A stretch of 64,000 nt of DNA from Amphritea sp. (GTDB taxonomy: Bacteria; Pseudomonadota; Gammaproteobacteria; Pseudomonadales; Balneatricaceae), in the NCBI RefSeq assembly GCF_016744155.1, contig NZ_JADGEW010000004.1, positions 1 to 64,000 of the forward strand, written 5' to 3'. Positions 42,945 to 51,111 of this stretch are shown here, piece after piece. Under the pieces are notes generated by a model, which was not told the origin of the DNA, did no database searches, and saw only the letters and a list, made by a program, of their open reading frames with translations. Both the position numbers and the translations under genes were made by a program. Positions within the stretch are counted from its first letter, which is position 1, and each line of letters opens with the position of its first letter.

Positions 42945-43808
42945 TTAGAAGTCGTACTTTGACGCAGTGTAGATCTTGAATGCTTTTTCCCAGATCTCGC
43001 CAACTTCGCCATTACCGACAGGCTTTCCATCCAGTTTAGTGACCGGCGCGATCTCTTTAGATGAGCTGGAAACCCAAAGTTCATCAGCATTTTGTGCTTC
43101 TTCCAGAGTGATAATACGCTCTTCAACCTTCAGGGAACCATCTGCTTTGAGGCTATCGATGATGATGCGACGGGTGATACCCGGCAGGATCTGGTTGTCC
43201 TGAATCGGGGTCGCAATCACGCCATCTTTAACGATAAATACGTTACATGAGCTGGCTTCGGTCAGCTCGCCTTTAGCGTTGAAAAGCAGGGCTTCGTCGT
43301 TACCGGTAGAGTAGCCTTCCTGGAAATGGATAACGTTGCCTAGCAGTGCAGTCGATTTTATGTGGCAGCGCTGCCAGCGTAGGTCTTCAGTCGAAACCAT
43401 GCTGTATTGGTGTACTTGACTACGATCAGCTGGCTCAGGATCTTTGATAGCGAAGGCGAAACAGAAGATAGTTGGCTCTACACCTTCTGGATACGCATGG
43501 TAACGCTTAACGTCAGTACCACGAGACACGTGAACGTATACACCCAGGTTTGTACCCAGGTCGCTGTTTTTAGCAATCAGATCGCTCAGTAGGGTTTTCC
43601 ACTCGTCAGCGGTGTGACTATTCTTGATCTCGATCTCAGTAAGGCCGTTGATCATACGGTTGATATGGGGCATCAGGCCTACAGATTTACCGTTGTAATA
43701 CGGAATTACTTCGTAGATACCGTCGCCAAACAGAAAGCCGCGATCCATTGGTGAGATGCGGGCTTCTTCTAGTGGCAGGTATTCGCCATTAAGGTATGCA
43801 ATGCTCAT
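42945..43808 (-). CDS. D-amino-acid (D-alanine) aminotransferase
   Basis: A 287-residue class IV PLP aminotransferase. MDRGFLFGDGIYEVIPYYNG at the N-terminus, the PLP lysine in RCHIKSTALLGNVI near residue 147 and ELTEASSCNVFIVKDG fit D-alanine transaminases (Dat). It would interconvert D-alanine and 2-oxoglutarate with pyruvate and D-glutamate. Branched-chain transaminases are related but longer. The D-glutamate cyclase operon lies 3 kb away. A LysR gene lies upstream on the same strand but with a 373-base gap. Confidence 0.82.
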   Translation of the reverse strand: MSIAYLNGEYLPLEEARISPMDRGFLFGDGIYEVIPYYNGKSVGLMPHINRMINGLTEIEIKNSHTADEWKTLLSDLIAKNSDLGTNLGVYVHVSRGTDVKRYHAYPEGVEPTIFCFAFAIKDPEPADRSQVHQYSMVSTEDLRWQRCHIKSTALLGNVIHFQEGYSTGNDEALLFNAKGELTEASSCNVFIVKDGVIATPIQDNQILPGITRRIIIDSLKADGSLKVEERIITLEEAQNADELWVSSSSKEIAPVTKLDGKPVGNGEVGEIWEKAFKIYTASKYDF

Positions 43809-44181: not shown

Positions 44182-45066
44182 CTAGACTGTAGTGATAATA
44201 ATTTCACGGCCGCTTTGGGCTAACAGCTGGGGAAGAATCCGGTCATCATCTAGCCGCCAGCAGGCACAGAATGCAAGTTCCGGTGGTTTAGGGCCGGGGC
44301 TGAACTCTACTAACATTCCTTTTGCCAGGTGTTCTTTTACAATTGGCGCGGGTAAGAGCGCCATTCCTGCTCCCTGAAGCGTGAGTGTCAGCAAGTTGGC
44401 GACAGAACTACAGGTATGAAAGACAGGCGTTTCATCAAGGGGCCGAAACAGCTGTTGCAGATAGTCCCAGGGCCGGGTGTCACGGGGAAAGCTTAGAATT
44501 GGGGAGTGGCTGAGTTCTTCTATGCTGGTGACGGGGTTTTCAGCGAGTCGCTCCGGTGTCGCGACCCAGTGTTGAGGGTAACTACATAAGGGCTCTGTCA
44601 CCAGTTCGGGCTGGTCGTTATTTCCAGCCACCATCAGAGCCAGGTCCAGTTGGTTCTCTTGCAATTGACGAGTCAGAGTCGGTGTTACATCACTGATCAA
44701 CTCAAATGACATTAAAGGATGCTGTTGCTGCCAGTGTTTCAGTAATGGAGAAAGATATAGATTCGCCAGTGTGTCGGTAATGCCGATACGCAGCGTGCCC
44801 TTTTGCGGGTTTTGATCGCTGATTTGCTGCTTCATCTCCTGACTGATTGCCAGTAGTTTCTTTGCATAGGGAAGTAGCTGTACACCACGGGAAGAGAGTC
44901 GGGTGCCGCTCTTATCACGAATAAAAAGCTGGGTCCCCAGTTCCTCTTCAAGTGTGTTAATGCGTGCTGATATAGCCGGTTGAGTGGCATGCAGTTGTTG
45001 GGCGGCAGCGTGGAAACTTCCCAGACTCGCTACTTTGATAAAAGTGTTCAGGTTTCTCAGGCGCAT
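44182..45066 (-). CDS. LysR-family regulator
   Basis: A 294-residue LysR protein with HTH GSFHAAAQQLHATQPAISAR and a substrate-binding domain. It is not of the BauR-like subfamily seen elsewhere in the window; its N-terminus is of the common LysR type. It lies between the transaminase and the Lrp regulator, all on the minus strand, and the target is not clear. Confidence 0.88.
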   Translation of the reverse strand: MRLRNLNTFIKVASLGSFHAAAQQLHATQPAISARINTLEEELGTQLFIRDKSGTRLSSRGVQLLPYAKKLLAISQEMKQQISDQNPQKGTLRIGITDTLANLYLSPLLKHWQQQHPLMSFELISDVTPTLTRQLQENQLDLALMVAGNNDQPELVTEPLCSYPQHWVATPERLAENPVTSIEELSHSPILSFPRDTRPWDYLQQLFRPLDETPVFHTCSSVANLLTLTLQGAGMALLPAPIVKEHLAKGMLVEFSPGPKPPELAFCACWRLDDDRILPQLLAQSGREIIITTV

Positions 45067-45128: not shown

Positions 45129-45590
45129 TTAGATGTTGTGAAGCGGAAGGCAGGTGGAGAATTTAATCTCCTCCATGGCAAAGCTGGAAGTTACATCGGT
45201 TAAACCATTTATTTCAGTAATGAGCTTTTTATAGAAACGGTCAAAAGATTCGATATCTTTAGTGGCGACTCTTAACAGGTAATCCCACTCACCGGCCATT
45301 CGGTAGCATTCCATCACCTCATCAAAACCAGTGATGCTTTCAGCAAAGCGCGCCAGCCACAGGTCTTCATGATTGTGGGTTTTCAAGTGGACAAAAACAG
45401 AAACCCCCGCACCTACTTTTGCACTGTTCAACAGTGCTACCCGAGCTTTGATGACGCCGGTATCCTCAAGCTTTTTAATGCGTTTCCAACAGGGGGTTGT
45501 TGAGAGGTTAACCCGTTCAGCTATGTCATTAACCGACAGGGTCGTATCCTGCTGTAGTAGGTTAAGTATTTTCTTATCTACGCTATCCAT
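45129..45590 (-). CDS. Lrp/AsnC-family regulator, DecR-like
   Basis: A 153-residue Lrp-type regulator with an HTH (NLSTTPCWKRIKKLEDTGVI) and a RAM effector domain. The end, VTSSFAMEEIKFSTCLPL, and the HTH closely match E. coli DecR (YbaO), the cysteine-responsive activator of a cysteine-degradation operon. It is divergent from a PLP enzyme of the cysteine synthase fold, so cysteine is the probable effector. The start at 45590 has AGGAT upstream. Confidence 0.82.
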   Translation of the reverse strand: MDSVDKKILNLLQQDTTLSVNDIAERVNLSTTPCWKRIKKLEDTGVIKARVALLNSAKVGAGVSVFVHLKTHNHEDLWLARFAESITGFDEVMECYRMAGEWDYLLRVATKDIESFDRFYKKLITEINGLTDVTSSFAMEEIKFSTCLPLHNI

Positions 45591-45743: not shown

Positions 45744-46790
45744 ATGACGAGCTGGGTACAAGAGGCGGTAGCCCTGATTCAGGCCGACGCACAGCGTTCT
45801 GCTGATACGCATCTAATTAAGCTGGATGTGCCGGGTCTGGTTGGAATCGACCTGTATTTGAAGGATGAGAGCAGTCACCCTACCGGAAGCCTGAAACACC
45901 GGTTAGCCCGCTCTCTGTTTCTCTATGCGTTATGTAATGGACAGATTAGCAATCAGACAACCGTGATCGAGGCTTCTTCGGGAAGTACTGCTGTCTCAGA
46001 AGCCTACTTTGCTCGTATGATTGGTGTGCCATTTGTAGCGGTAATGCCGCGTAAGACCGCCGTAGCTAAAATCAAGCAAGTCGAATTTTATGGTGGTCGT
46101 TGTCATTACGTCGATTGCCCCACTCAGATGCATGATGCCGCGGTGATGTTAGCGCAAGAATGTAATGGCCATTTCATGGATCAGTTCCGTTATGCTGAGC
46201 GGGCTACCGACTGGCGGGGTAATAGCAATATTGCTGAGAGTATCTTTCGGCAGATGAGCCAGGAGCCTCATCCGGTGCCTGCTGCCATCGTTATGAGTGC
46301 CGGTACCGGTGGAACAACAGCGACTTTAGGGCGTTATATTCGCTATAAAGGATTGGATACAGAACTGATGGCCGTCGACCCTGAAAACTCAGTATTCTAT
46401 GACGTTTGGCGAACCGGTGATCGTTCGATTGAAATTGCTAAAGGGGGGCGAATTGAAGGAATCGGGCGCCCTCGGGCGGAGGAGTCGTTTCAACCTACAG
46501 TGATCGACCGGATGATCAAAGTACCTGATGGGGCTTCGGTTGCTGCGATGCGCTGGCTGGAACAGCAAACAGGTCGCAGAGCAGGGGCGTCAACCGGAAC
46601 CAACCTTTGGGGTATGTTGACGCTTGCAGCGGAGATGCATCAGCGGGGCGAAAAGGGCTCTCTGGTTACGCTTATCTGTGATAGCGGTGAGCGCTACCTG
46701 GATAGCTATTATGATGCGCAATGGGTGGCACAAAATATTGGCGATATCTCTCTTTATCAGGAACCTCTGAAAGTGATGACGGGGGGATAG
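45744..46790 (+). CDS. PLP-dependent cysteine synthase-fold enzyme (probable cysteine desulfhydrase)
   Basis: A 348-residue fold-type II PLP enzyme with HPTGSLKHRLA (PLP lysine near residue 52), ASSGSTAVSEAYFARMIG and SAGTGGTTATLG. These belong to the cysteine synthase superfamily. The KHRLA and SSGSTAVSEAY pattern resembles Cds1-type cysteine desulfhydrases, which release H2S, pyruvate and ammonia from cysteine. The divergent DecR-like regulator supports cysteine breakdown. Synthesis of another beta-substituted amino acid is an alternative. Confidence 0.78.
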   Translation: MTSWVQEAVALIQADAQRSADTHLIKLDVPGLVGIDLYLKDESSHPTGSLKHRLARSLFLYALCNGQISNQTTVIEASSGSTAVSEAYFARMIGVPFVAVMPRKTAVAKIKQVEFYGGRCHYVDCPTQMHDAAVMLAQECNGHFMDQFRYAERATDWRGNSNIAESIFRQMSQEPHPVPAAIVMSAGTGGTTATLGRYIRYKGLDTELMAVDPENSVFYDVWRTGDRSIEIAKGGRIEGIGRPRAEESFQPTVIDRMIKVPDGASVAAMRWLEQQTGRRAGASTGTNLWGMLTLAAEMHQRGEKGSLVTLICDSGERYLDSYYDAQWVAQNIGDISLYQEPLKVMTGG

Positions 46791-46851: not shown

Positions 46852-46871
46852 AAACCGCCATACGGCGGTTT
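46852..46871. terminator. Bidirectional terminator
   Basis: Stem AAACCGCC/GGCGGTTT with an ATAC loop. A T run follows on the minus strand. It sits between the convergent PLP gene and the DUF4392 gene. Confidence 0.85.
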
Positions 46872-46888: not shown

Positions 46889-47743
46889 TTAGTCGTTATA
46901 ACCAATCAGTCCACGCAGTTCTTTTATAACACTGATCCCTTCATCAACCGGCAGACCATCTTCGGTGAGTTCGTTGATGCGGGTAACGCCATCAACACTA
47001 CCAAGCTTGGACAGGTATTCAAGGATCGCTAATGGTTCGAACTCACCTAGCAGATCGCGGCCACTCCAGAGACTGAAGAATGTGATCAGGCCATATGCTC
47101 CCCAGTTAGATACATCGGCGATCAGTAGCTCATCAACGCAGGTTGCCGCCGCGTTGATATCCAGATCTTTAAGCGCTTCAGTAATGTTACCCATACCAAT
47201 TTCGTTGCCACCATCGCCGATACCAATCGTCGGGCACTTAGCGTTGTTAACAAAGGTATCGAAACAAGCGGTGCGTTCACTGATGCTCTCGCCGCGCATA
47301 TTGTAATAGCCCCCATCTGCTGCCTGTCCCGGGCGTTCGATAGATAACACGGCATCTGGGTTATAGTTGTACAGTGCCTTGAAAGCTTCAAGGGTACGTT
47401 CCTGATGTTCGCCAACGCGGATTTCATGTACCCGGTAGTTGTCCATCAGTGCCTGAGATACCGGCGGTCCACAAACGATAACCGGTGTGGCACCGAGTTT
47501 TTCCAATGCTTCGTAGAGCGCAATAGCGCCAACGGGGCCATCGGTTTCAAAGGTGTCGACTACAGGAAAGCCGGTACCAATCAGTACATGGCCTTTACAC
47601 TTATAAAGTGTGCGTGCAGCGCGCAGGTAGTAGCCTGTAGAAAGAGCAGGCTGAACGGTTTTCATGCCGCGCAGGTTGCGGGAAACCAGTAGGTCTTCTA
47701 CCTGAAGGCTCAGGGCTGATTCGTTGATCTGATTCTTAGACAT
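46889..47743 (-). CDS. D-glutamate cyclase, DUF4392 (DGLUCY C-terminal type)
   Basis: A 284-residue protein of the DUF4392 family, the domain that forms the C-terminal half of mammalian D-glutamate cyclase (DGLUCY). Visible motifs are GTGFPVVDTFETDGPVGA near residue 57 and IGIGDGGNEIGMGNI near residue 174. DGLUCY turns D-glutamate into 5-oxo-D-proline. The gene is the last of a minus-strand operon after pxpC, across a 101-base gap. A YcsI-type gene, matching the N-terminal half of DGLUCY, leads the same operon. Confidence 0.82.
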   Translation of the reverse strand: MSKNQINESALSLQVEDLLVSRNLRGMKTVQPALSTGYYLRAARTLYKCKGHVLIGTGFPVVDTFETDGPVGAIALYEALEKLGATPVIVCGPPVSQALMDNYRVHEIRVGEHQERTLEAFKALYNYNPDAVLSIERPGQAADGGYYNMRGESISERTACFDTFVNNAKCPTIGIGDGGNEIGMGNITEALKDLDINAAATCVDELLIADVSNWGAYGLITFFSLWSGRDLLGEFEPLAILEYLSKLGSVDGVTRINELTEDGLPVDEGISVIKELRGLIGYND

Positions 47744-47844
47744 CGAGAGTTCTCTCTTTAAAAATTCTGTTCGTAGCCATTAATACAGACTCAGCTATAA
47801 GTACTTATCTATAGGTACTCATCTACAAGAGCCTGGCTGTTTGC

Positions 47845-48783
47845 TTAATCGATGGCTTCCGGCTCGGTATTGTTAAACCGAACATGGGCCAGGCAATGTA
47901 GGTTATGGGCATCATCGATACTGATCTCCTCGAATGATATTCGAGAGCCTGGGAGTAACTGAGCCATTCGGGCTGTATCCATTGCGATCATTGAGCCTAT
48001 CTTCGGATAGCCGCCGATCGTCTGTCGATCATTAAGCAATACGATCGGTTGACCATCGGCCGGAATCTGTATCGCTCCGTGGCAGATACCTTCAGATAAA
48101 ATGCCATCAATCGCCGGTTTAACTTCAGGGCCTTCCAATCGGTAGCCCATGCGGTCAGCACGATCAGTAACCTTGTATTCGCTACTGAAAAACAATCGTT
48201 TTTGGTAATCGCTGAAAGCCTGTTGCTGATAACCGGTAATCACCCTTAGGGATATGTCGTCGAAGTAGTCGGGACGATGTTCGTCAGGTAGGCGGAAACC
48301 ACGATGATCTACAGGTGGATTGCAATGTAGATAATCACCCTGTTGGAGCTTTTCACCGGTAAAACCGCCGATGCCTTCGCGGGTAACTGTCGCGCTGCTG
48401 GAAAAACTGTGCTCTACCTGAAAGCCACCGCTGACGGCCAGGTAAGCACGTGCACCTTGTGTCGAGAAACTGACTTCGATTTTATCGCCTGCTTTGATCT
48501 TGTGAGCGTGCCAGCGATCTTGTTCAATACCGTTGATCTTCAGGGGCATCTCGGCGCCGGCCAGCACGATCTGGGCATCAGTCTCAGCTTGCATCACCAA
48601 ACCGCCAAAACTAATCTCCAGGGTGGTGCTGTTCATTGGGTTATCAACCAGACGGTTAGCCCATTTGAACGCCAGACTATCCAATGGACCACCGGTGGTC
48701 AGGCCGATGCGATGGTGACCGAAACGGCCGGCATCCTGGATCAGGGTAAGCAGACCCGGTTGAATAACTTTAAAACCGCTCAT
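47845..48783 (-). CDS. pxpC: 5-oxoprolinase subunit PxpC
   Basis: A 312-residue biotin-dependent carboxyltransferase-like protein with PGLLTLIQDAGRFGHHRIG and GLTTGGPLDSLAFKWANRL, then VLNDRQTIGGYPKIG, the signature of KipA/YbgK. With PxpA and PxpB it cleaves 5-oxoproline to glutamate using ATP. Its start overlaps the pxpB stop by four bases. Confidence 0.92.
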   Translation of the reverse strand: MSGFKVIQPGLLTLIQDAGRFGHHRIGLTTGGPLDSLAFKWANRLVDNPMNSTTLEISFGGLVMQAETDAQIVLAGAEMPLKINGIEQDRWHAHKIKAGDKIEVSFSTQGARAYLAVSGGFQVEHSFSSSATVTREGIGGFTGEKLQQGDYLHCNPPVDHRGFRLPDEHRPDYFDDISLRVITGYQQQAFSDYQKRLFFSSEYKVTDRADRMGYRLEGPEVKPAIDGILSEGICHGAIQIPADGQPIVLLNDRQTIGGYPKIGSMIAMDTARMAQLLPGSRISFEEISIDDAHNLHCLAHVRFNNTEPEAID

Positions 48784-49493
48784 TTTATCTCTCCCAGTTC
48801 ACCACCCAGAGAGAAAAACTCATCACGGCTGATCGGGTTGAATTTAATGCGGTCTCCTACCTGAACGGGCATGGTAGGTTTAGCTTCTGGGTCAAACATA
48901 CGCGTAGGACAAAGTCCGATCAGATTCCAGCCGCCGGGAGATATCGCCGGATAAACAGCGGTCTGACGGTCAGCAATAGCGATAGCGCCACGGGGAACCT
49001 TCATTCTCGGTGTAGAAAGGCGTGGAGCGGCAATTCGTTCATCGACTTCGCCAAGGTATGCGAACCCCGGTGCAAAGCCGATGGCGTAGACCCGATATTC
49101 CATTTCGCTATGTAACTTAATTACTTCATCAGCACTGAGCCCGGCCCGTTGAGCCAGAGCATCAAGATCGGGGCCAGATTCACTGCTGTAATATGCAGGC
49201 AGGATAACCAGATTCCCCTCTGCGTTAACGGCATCGCTCAATTGGTTAAGTACCTTGCGTATGGTACTGCGTACTTCCAGGTGGTCAGTTGCCAACTGAT
49301 CATAGATCACCAGCAATGACGCATAGGAAGGCACCATATCGATCAGCTTGCCATTTAACTCAGTCTCAAGAATGGTGACCGCTTGTTGGACCCGTGCCGA
49401 CACGCTTGGATCGGTCTTTTCACCAAAGTAGATGATCAGAGCATTTTCGCCTGCCACTTCGATGCGGATGCTTTTGTCTGCCATGCTAATCAT
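48780..49493 (-). CDS. pxpB: 5-oxoprolinase subunit PxpB
   Basis: A 237-residue KipI/YbgJ-type protein. The key segment is YAIGFAPGFAYLGEVDERI followed by RLSTPRMKVPRGAIAIADRQ and YPAISPGGWNLIGLCP. It is the second subunit of the ATP-dependent 5-oxoprolinase. Four-base overlaps with both neighbours show tight translational coupling. Confidence 0.92.
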   Translation of the reverse strand: MISMADKSIRIEVAGENALIIYFGEKTDPSVSARVQQAVTILETELNGKLIDMVPSYASLLVIYDQLATDHLEVRSTIRKVLNQLSDAVNAEGNLVILPAYYSSESGPDLDALAQRAGLSADEVIKLHSEMEYRVYAIGFAPGFAYLGEVDERIAAPRLSTPRMKVPRGAIAIADRQTAVYPAISPGGWNLIGLCPTRMFDPEAKPTMPVQVGDRIKFNPISRDEFFSLGGELGEIK

Positions 49494-50224
49494 TGGCGGA
49501 TCAACTCTCTAATTTCCTCAATAGCATTAACGCCGTCCATATTGTCACCATGTACACAAAGGGTATCAGCGCGCAGGTTTAAGGTATGCCCGCTAACGGT
49601 AGTGACGGTACCTTGTTCTTTAAGCTGTTTAACCTGAGTTAGCATCTTCTCTTTGGTGTGAACGGCTCCTGGCTTGGTGCGGGCTAATAACTTGCCGTCG
49701 TCGTCGTAACAGCGGTCGGCAAAGATCTCAAACCAAAGCTCTATACCGGCGGCTTTAGCTTCCTCAAGGTGCTGCTCAAATTGAGGCGTGCTCTGAAGCA
49801 TCAGAACCAGTGGACGGTGATACTCGGCGACGGCCTGCATGATGGTTTGGCGTATGGAAGCGTCAGCCATCATATCGTTGTACATAGCGCCGTGAGGCTT
49901 AACGTAGCTCAGAGTCATACCCTGAGTTAATGCCATTCCATCGATAGCTGCGATCTGGTACTGCACCATCGCTTTTAATTCTGCCGCAGAGGCTTTAATA
50001 CTACGACGACCAAAACCGACAAGATCTGGGTAACCGGGGTGTGCGCCAATAGTGACACTGTTATCTTTGGCCAGCGTCAGTGTCTTCTGTAACACTAGCG
50101 GGTCGCCAGCGTGAAAACCACAGGCGATATTTGCCTGGTCTATGTGCGGCATTACTGCTTCATCAAGACCCATTTTCCAGGAGCCAAAGCTTTCACCTAA
50201 GTCACAATTCAGACGTAAAGACAT
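49490..50224 (-). CDS. pxpA: 5-oxoprolinase subunit PxpA
   Basis: A 244-residue LamB/YcsF-type protein beginning LNCDLGESFGSWKMG, with ACGFHAGDP and YVKPHGAMYND. It is the first subunit of 5-oxoprolinase, the complex that turns 5-oxoproline, a spontaneous product of glutamine and glutamate, into glutamate. It lies 13 bases after the YcsI-type gene and overlaps pxpB by four bases. Confidence 0.93.
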   Translation of the reverse strand: MSLRLNCDLGESFGSWKMGLDEAVMPHIDQANIACGFHAGDPLVLQKTLTLAKDNSVTIGAHPGYPDLVGFGRRSIKASAAELKAMVQYQIAAIDGMALTQGMTLSYVKPHGAMYNDMMADASIRQTIMQAVAEYHRPLVLMLQSTPQFEQHLEEAKAAGIELWFEIFADRCYDDDGKLLARTKPGAVHTKEKMLTQVKQLKEQGTVTTVSGHTLNLRADTLCVHGDNMDGVNAIEEIRELIRQ

Positions 50225-50237
50225 AGTTGATTCTCCT

Positions 50238-51026
50238 TTACAGTATAGCCAGACGGCTGTTTGGCAGATCGGTTATCAGCATATGCCCCGGGCTGTGGGT
50301 GATACAGAATTCCGGCTTGGCTTGCTCAATGGCCACTTGTGGTGTTACCCCGCAAGCCCAGAATACTGGAAGTTCACCCTCTTTGATGGTAACGGCATCG
50401 CCAAAGTCAGGTGAGTTTATATCGGTGATTCCGATCTGAGACGGATCGCCCAAGTGAAGAGGTGCGCCATGTACTGATGGGAAGCGGGTGCAGATTTGTA
50501 CAGCACGAATTGCATCAGCCGCTTTCATTGGACGCATACTCACGACGGTGGTGCCGCTGAAGCGTCCCGCACTTTTACACTCAATGTTGGTGCGGTACAT
50601 AGGTACGTTGACACCTTCGGTGATATTACGTACTTCCAGTCCGTCGGCGATCAACGCTTCTTCAAAAGAGAATGAACAGCCTAATACAAAGGTCACCAGA
50701 TCATCACGCCAGAAAGGTGTCAGGTCAGCGACTTCCTGGGTCAGTATGCCCTTTTCGTAGATACGGTATCTCGGTACATCGCTGCGGATATCAATCTCTT
50801 GGCCGAGGTCTGGCAGCATAAATTCGCCTGGCTGGCTGGACATGCCAACAATCGGGCAAGGTTTTGGGTTCTTTTGGCAGAACTGGAGAAAGTCATTAGC
50901 CCATTCTTTTGGCATAATCGCGAGGTTTCCCTGTACAAAACCCTGTCCGAATCCAGACGTATTACCGGTAAAATCGCCGTTGCGAATCTGCTGGCGGATC
51001 TCAAAAGGAGTCATCTCTTTGTTCAT
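50238..51026 (-). CDS. YcsI-type (DUF1445) D-glutamate cyclase family protein
   Basis: A 262-residue protein of the DUF1445/YcsI family, with [33 protein letters not shown] and [20 protein letters not shown]. This domain is the N-terminal half of mammalian DGLUCY. The ATG at 51026 is chosen because AAAGGT lies upstream and YcsI proteins begin just here; the 21-codon extension to 51089 is basic and not conserved. It leads the pxpABC operon. B. subtilis ycsI is also linked to kipI and kipA, so the linkage itself is known. Confidence 0.85.
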
Positions 51027-51111
51027 CAGTTTTACCTTTATTCTGCGGGTCGCAATGCGACGCTCTTTTGTGACTTTGTTTTCCTGCATTTAAAGAATGC
51101 GGGACAACGAC

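Follow-up and report, generated by a model that had tools for sequence, protein, structure and literature searches.

Why should a 5-oxoprolinase be encoded between the two parts of an animal-type D-glutamate cyclase? The question is raised by a 64,000-nt stretch of DNA from Amphritea sp. (the window, meaning here the whole stretch that was analysed), in which the genes encoding DUF1445, PxpA, PxpB, PxpC and DUF4392 follow one another on the minus strand at 46889-51026. This five-gene order, described in an earlier note on this DNA, was confirmed with exact coordinates, and all five products were over their cut-offs in Pfam (Pfam was judged at curated cut-offs and NCBIfam at model cut-offs). 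The DUF1445 gene (also YcsI or UPF0317; 50238-51026; 262 amino acids) matches PF07286 'D-Glu_cyclase' with 229 bits, and the DUF4392 gene (46889-47743) matches PF14336 'GLUCM-like_C', the D-glutamate cyclase-like C-terminal family, with 236 bits. Between them stand the genes for 5-oxoprolinase subunit A (pxpA, LamB/YcsF; 49490-50224; PF03746, PxpA subfamily models of NCBIfam passed), subunit B (pxpB; 48780-49493; PF02682, TIGR00370 passed) and subunit C (pxpC; 47845-48783; PF02626, CT_A_B), of which the last passed the domain model TIGR00724 (256.4 against a cut-off of 230.2) and was under the equivalog NF045499 (217.4 against 500). The trio of neighbouring PxpA-, PxpB- and PxpC-family genes by which PxpABC is recognised is present, and PxpABC is here a putative ATP-dependent 5-oxoproline-opening enzyme.

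The gene set is read as a D-glutamate/5-oxoproline operon, a proposal in which our confidence is about even, with supply by Dat (often with Alr), a drain through a split cyclase and reopening by PxpABC. The D-amino-acid transaminase homologue Dat would interconvert D-alanine and 2-oxoglutarate with D-glutamate and pyruvate, and the alanine racemase Alr, beside Dat in many relatives, would join alanine to this route, which could provide cell-wall D-glutamate in the absence of the glutamate racemase MurI. DUF1445 and the metal-binding DUF4392 would jointly form a split D-glutamate cyclase draining surplus D-glutamate to 5-oxoproline, and PxpABC would open 5-oxoproline back to glutamate with ATP being spent. 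Either Pxp in these bacteria would take the D form, or one of the two DUF proteins would invert 5-oxoproline. What the sequences show is the genes, their order, conservation and co-occurrence, the metal ligands, the D-transaminase residues and the frequent lack of MurI; we infer the reactions, the cooperation of the two halves, which way the flow runs and the step from D to L.

The mammalian protein DGLUCY (9030617O03Rik, C14orf159) consists of the same two domains as are found in the operon, DUF1445 and DUF4392. It is one fused mitochondrial protein with demonstrated activity, whereas in the operon two putative cyclase proteins, encoded by unfused genes 2.5 kb apart, flank PxpABC. In the accessible part of Ariyoshi 2017, the fused mouse protein (9030617O03Rik) converts D-glutamate to 5-oxo-D-proline and has no glutamate racemase activity; among the literature covered, this fused protein is the only assayed support for the cyclase. 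The idea of a split cyclase is not new, since the fusion of DUF1445 and DUF4392 in higher animals is given in the accessible part of Sohn 2016 (PMC5132392), a 2024 preprint lists GLUCM among human proteins with split homologues in the gut (its table row for human GLUCM holds 0 and 6, probably the numbers of full-length and split homologues), and Pfam already names both families after D-glutamate cyclase (PF07286, PF14336). Among the literature matches listed, which comprised titles, abstract starts and passages, no publication joined DUF4392, Pxp, Dat and the loss of MurI. The parts are known, and the combination and the link to MurI are new as far as the literature searched reaches. If the reading is true, bacteria hold a split form of the animal enzyme in a setting that reveals its job.

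Conservation of the gene set

The conservation of the locus was followed in two samples. The first comprised the best 80 of 553 confirmed relatives in the genome collection, which are the closest relatives and hence a biased sample; their names are those of gammaproteobacteria, mostly of marine genera, with a few bins titled just Proteobacteria or an order. The order DUF1445-A-B-C-DUF4392 was retained in 64 of these 80 loci, in 3 of which DUF1445 lies 2 to 6 kb away. DUF1445 was within the locus in 66/80, and the remaining 14 were either cut by the contig start (9 loci) or had DUF1445 elsewhere in the genome (5 loci), so that the gene remained in the genome in 5/5 of the loci that had room for it.

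The second sample comprised 115 genomes of the window's order, in each of which DUF4392, DUF1445 and pxpA were searched. DUF4392 was over the cut-off in 17 genomes (G104, with a sub-cut-off match of 19.6 bits, was left out of this count), DUF1445 in 26 and pxpA in 54. DUF1445 was present in 16 of the 17 genomes with DUF4392 compared with 10 of the 98 without (Fisher p 5e-12, a test that treats the genomes as independent, so that kinship inflates the significance), and the sole DUF4392 genome without it (G082) is 87% complete, its DUF4392 gene lying close to the end of a contig. Every one of the 26 genomes with DUF1445 had pxpA. The three families were found in one locus in 14/17 DUF4392 genomes, and in G003 DUF4392 is with pxpA while DUF1445 is on another contig. 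These results support DUF1445-pxpABC-DUF4392 as a conserved unit, and the inclusion of DUF4392 in the pxp set, which the earlier note had proposed, is borne out in both samples.

In a sample of the phylum, DUF4392 was detected in 10 of 398 genomes, the window's included. Five others belong to the class, and in each of them DUF1445 shares the locus with DUF4392; 2 of these loci are without pxp there and 1 has an open reading frame of 3573 amino acids instead. This reading frame (L131:4683-15401, genome G424) matches DUF4781 and has two DUF4392-like domains, and a DUF1445 gene adjoins it on the same strand. In plasmid searches, DUF4392 was found in 16 records and DUF1445 in 240, the largest group of the latter being Klebsiella with 93.

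Dat, alanine racemase and MurI in operon genomes

The earlier note had placed a D-alanine transaminase 3 kb from the operon, and a class IV D-amino-acid-transaminase homologue by Pfam (Dat; 42945-43808, minus strand) does stand at that distance, though a LysR gene, an Lrp gene and an opposite-strand Cds1-like gene are between. The protein is under the cut-off of the equivalog TIGR01121 (228 against 277) and also under that of its best model, the D-amino-acid transaminase PRK06680 (242 against 320). In the alignment to 3daa, Y32 (92/92), R102 (90/92), H104 (92/92) and K151 (92/92) are conserved, which we take to be the Tyr, the Arg-x-His and the pyridoxal phosphate (PLP) lysine that function in D-amino-acid transaminase. 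A second Dat homologue, 41% identical, is located elsewhere in the window's genome (G000:C29:523127-523960).

Dat was downstream of DUF4392 on the same strand in 71 of the 80 loci, with no intervening gene, with one LysR gene or, in five loci, with Cds1, Lrp and LysR genes between. The other nine were cut by a contig end (2), without Dat (5) or with a weaker Dat relative on the opposite strand (2). In the order survey, Dat was next in 15/16 retrieved loci with DUF4392 over the cut-off. The commonest further neighbour family in the neighbour search was alanine racemase (36/97 loci, in most cases on the same strand and downstream), and the next commonest was found in 23/97 loci on mixed strands. 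By direct search with tblastn, Alr was directly behind Dat in 44/91 Dat loci with gaps of at most 176 bases, a count into which the contig shared by L021 and L055 and that shared by L032 and L106 each enter twice. TIGR00492 is passed by one upstream Alr, those of L135 and L137 were identified by Pfam, and the rest by tblastn alone. The D-glutamate link of the gene set is strengthened by Dat and Alr adjoining DUF4392 in relatives, and Dat next to DUF4392 is its strongest sign, beyond what the earlier note saw. In Bacilli, D-glutamate can be made by a Dat route consisting of Alr and D-amino-acid transaminase. There, as in the relatives of the operon, Dat is with Alr and MurI is often absent; the difference is that in the operon this route comes together with a putative D-glutamate cyclase and a 5-oxoprolinase.

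MurI is essential in most bacteria studied. Among the 115 order genomes, MurI was over the cut-off in 5/17 with DUF4392 compared with 75/98 without (p 3e-4), and among those at least 90% complete (n=100) in 5/16 compared with 66/84 (p 4e-4), where sub-cut-off fragments in G092 and G113 were scored as lacking and where, as in the MurI and Dat comparisons below, p is too small because the genomes are related, so that their counts do not represent independent samples. In the Dat comparison, a homologue (E 1e-40 or better, at least 36% identity) was present in 29/35 MurI-less compared with 16/80 MurI-bearing genomes of the order (p 2e-10), and at 50% identity or more in 15 MurI-less compared with 4 MurI-bearing genomes. 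MurI was also searched in 50 of the 80 operon loci, made up of 28 loci without Alr behind Dat and 22 of the 29 that have it there. In these further operon genomes, for which no completeness figures were given and among which bins overstate the loss, MurI was over the cut-off in 12/50 and not in 38/50, the latter including 17/27 isolates. In Amphritea opalescens and A. balenae, just a weak, sub-cut-off match to MurI was found, and the complete genome of Rheinheimera sp. D18 gave no match. MurI would be dispensable in such genomes because Alr and Dat could make D-glutamate, and its scarcity suggests a function in the supply and control of D-glutamate rather than in breakdown alone, so the emphasis of the earlier note on a breakdown route has been shifted. 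If true, this would show a way for marine bacteria to produce and restrain D-glutamate without MurI.

Part of the MurI evidence counts on the other side. Since MurI was found less often in metagenome bins and uncultured records (2/23) than in isolates (10/27), incomplete sequence may account for some of the loss; taken by themselves, the isolates nevertheless differ from the other order genomes (10/27 compared with 66/84, p 1e-4), and our confidence in the operon reading was kept for this reason. MurI was rarer where Alr is next to Dat (2/22 compared with 10/28 without, p 0.045), a weak difference, which in the isolates was 2/10 compared with 8/17. In 17 of the 38 operon genomes lacking MurI the racemase model was weakly matched, so that another racemase is possible in those 17. 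The window's own genome has MurI (G000:C38), and its Alr is elsewhere, away from the operon.

The presence of MurI in the window's genome would also fit scavenging rather than homeostasis, a possible alternative that we hold tentatively, in which the same chemistry would let the cell feed on the D-alanine and D-glutamate of peptidoglycan: Dat would move the D-amino group to 2-oxoglutarate, and the cyclase and PxpABC would carry it on to glutamate. A gene for a GH3 glycosidase, a family that includes muropeptide enzymes, lies directly upstream of DUF1445 in three Pseudoalteromonas loci (L148-L150) and in L132, and in L134 it is separated from DUF1445 by one gene, which hints at cell-wall fragments as a source; a partial GH3 match was also seen about 6 kb off in L130. 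In addition, the unit is carried by Pseudoalteromonas sp. CF6-2, a strain that reportedly requires Dat for the use of D-alanine. The same strain is said to degrade D-glutamate by another route, DgcN/DgcA, which argues against scavenging through this unit, as does the conserved unit being without an importer. The frequent lack of MurI and a Dat-Alr pair standing alone in a 1.3-Mb genome (L137) point instead to D-glutamate supply. The DgcN/DgcA catabolism, said to have been described in marine bacteria by Yu in 2023, reportedly proceeds via N-acetyl-D-glutamate and a racemase with no 5-oxoproline; like the operon, it belongs to marine gammaproteobacteria that handle D-glutamate.

The two DUF families and the mirror forms of 5-oxoproline

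The six acidic metal ligands of the Thermococcus DUF4392 protein TON_0340 (PDB 4dwz, 4fc5, 5gkx, 5gl2-5gl4), named in the accessible part of PMC5132392, are retained in the DUF4392 protein of the window (E66, D68, E136, D177, E181 and D262) and conserved in 101/101 aligned rows, in which two contigs were counted twice. The DUF4392 model (pLDDT 95) agrees with solved relatives and has the same fold and metal site as TON_0340 structure 5gl2 (Foldseek E 7.5e-22); beyond TON_0340, just weak, general structure matches were obtained, from E 4e-4 onward, and no NCBIfam model matched DUF4392. DUF1445 passes NF003969 'putative hydro-lyase' (421 against a cut-off of 324), its model (pLDDT 90) has the PDB relatives 3db9 and 2pif, and two of its cysteines, C117 and C225, are invariant. 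A mechanism for DUF1445 from structure neighbours was sought and rejected, as beyond 2pif and 3db9 the best 50 matches contained only 3nek, a nitrogen-repressor-like protein (E 1e-5, TM 0.4). An internal repeat with equivalent cysteines, in the style of a two-base racemase, was also rejected and is retained just as a weak idea, since comparing the profiles of the two halves gave a probability of 0.5%, a value not above that of unrelated halves.

The chemistry supplies the first of the points that weigh against the operon reading. TON_0340 is archaeal and published as a Mn-dependent phosphatase, the activity being lost in D157L and the physiological substrate unknown according to the accessible part of Sohn 2016 (PMC5132392), whereas the operon DUF4392 is bacterial and a putative cyclase half. 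The literature matches listed contained no cyclase assay of a bacterial DUF1445 or DUF4392 protein. The mismatch between D and L forms at PxpABC is the main gap: published Pxp work, in the parts accessible, concerns 5-oxo-L-proline and the mouse product is the D form, so that a complete route from D-glutamate to L-glutamate, as drawn in the earlier note, is not established, while its conserved unit and its link to D-glutamate through Dat and Alr stand. A PxpABC opening the D form would enter a futile cycle with the cyclase. The operon makes this mirror-form question directly testable and, if the reading is true, would assign a role to two 'DUF' families, of which one spans archaea to humans.

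A bridge independent of MurI, which we consider doubtful, would close this gap, with DUF4392 as a Mn-dependent D-glutamate cyclase and DUF1445 inverting 5-oxo-D-proline to 5-oxo-L-proline for PxpABC and on to L-glutamate. A 5-oxoproline racemase would explain why pxpA accompanies DUF1445 in every order genome that has the latter, even where DUF1445 adjoins a TRAP importer and not DUF4392 and Dat, and if true it would be a racemase of a new kind. The internal-repeat comparison gave no support to this, and the fused mouse protein is without glutamate racemase activity in the part of its report available.

Variant loci and neighbouring genes

Further points against the operon reading come from the distribution of the genes. 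Outside the window's class, DUF1445 was beside DUF4392 in 0/4 loci, and 2/4 DUF4392 genomes had no DUF1445. In G103, of the window's own family, DUF1445, DUF4392 and pxpA are at separate places, and 10 of the 26 DUF1445 genomes of the order lack DUF4392. Eight loci of these 10 genomes were inspected: five have a tripartite ATP-independent periplasmic (TRAP) importer and pxpABC adjoining DUF1445, either as LysR-DUF1445-TRAP importer-pxpABC (L140, L143 and L145, LysR being one gene off in L145) or as longer importer units (L141, L146), with the importer genes Pfam-tested in L140, L141 and L143. Two have DUF1445 with pxp genes and no importer (L138, L142), and one has neither beside it (L139). 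In L151 and L152, plasmids of Sinorhizobium and Agrobacterium, DUF4392 is with a PLP dehydratase and RidA, a setting that suggests another use of the family. These DUF4392 proteins are divergent (31% identical), and their genes lie behind a LysR gene, between a threonine/serine dehydratase-like gene and RidA.

The loci with a TRAP importer and pxpABC and no DUF4392 or Dat beside would fit salvage of 5-oxoproline only, in which PxpABC would repair spontaneously formed 5-oxo-L-proline, DUF1445 would be a PxpABC accessory, DUF4392 would be a Mn phosphatase or other hydrolase, and Dat would be a neighbour through a shared demand for glutamate. The constant company of pxpA with DUF1445 and the D157L-sensitive phosphatase activity of TON_0340 agree with this, as does Bacillus subtilis, whose PxpABC operon, in the parts of the sources available, contains pxpABC with DUF1445 (YcsI), as here, and also the Mn importer YcsG. 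B. subtilis has no DUF4392 in a PF14336 search of its genome, and the operon here has no metal importer in the unit. Salvage is nevertheless unlikely, as it leaves unexplained Dat following DUF4392 in most close relatives, the DUF1445-DUF4392 pairs without adjoining pxp (L083, L133, L134), the lack of MurI and the reported cyclase activity of the fused mouse protein.

Variants of the D-glutamate operon hold D-glutamate genes together in shorter forms and indicate that the genes have a theme in common and do not form a fixed chain. In Reinekea (L083), DUF1445-DUF4392-Dat stand without pxp beside, with pxpC-family genes elsewhere, and the three Pseudoalteromonas megaplasmids (L148-L150) carry GH3-DUF1445-PxpA-DUF4392-Dat. 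In two loci (L135, L136; one genome 75% complete) the cyclase genes are missing and the order is pxpABC-phosphoribosyltransferase-Dat-Alr. These two loci would fit a reverse flow, in which the clade's own PxpABC turns 5-oxo-D-proline into D-glutamate with no need of a 5-oxoproline racemase, and Dat and Alr hand the amino group to D-alanine and then L-alanine. We regard such a flow as very unlikely, since it sets the cyclase against PxpABC and the action of PxpABC on the D form is putative. The gene between pxpC and Dat lies at L135:8147-8725 (phosphoribosyltransferase-like by Pfam) and L136:2023-2583, and neither genome has MurI over the cut-off.

Within the window, the gaps along DUF1445-A-B-C-DUF4392 are 13, -4, -4 and 101 bases, and a single transcript is least secure at the last of these, ahead of DUF4392. 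A terminator-like hairpin (46852-46871, T run on the minus strand), directly 3' of DUF4392, separates it from Dat, which counts against the operon reading as well. The hairpin, a consensus match only, is likely to be the terminator behind the operon. No minus-strand promoter or terminator was found in the 101-base gap by a consensus scan, which is weak evidence because its site counts over the whole window were about those of shuffles (8 promoter-like sites compared with 11.3, not in excess, and 12 terminator-like sites compared with 8.7, standard deviation 3.1). DUF1445 has an alternative longer in-frame start at 51089, and AAAGG is immediately 5' of the ATG at 51026.

Of the genes between the operon and Dat, the Cds1-like gene (45744-46790, plus strand) encodes a PLP fold-II enzyme resembling L-cysteine desulfhydrase (547.6 bits against a cut-off of 600) and is divergent from the Lrp/AsnC-type regulator gene (45129-45590, minus strand; Pfam, NCBIfam). 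The same placement, between operon and Dat, is seen in the five loci most closely related to this one (L036-L040, of which L036 is truncated by its contig). The LysR-type regulator (44182-45066, minus strand; Pfam) is a candidate regulator of the gene set, and a relative of it with at least 38% identity was found between DUF4392 and Dat in 23 of the 80 loci, on the other strand in 4.

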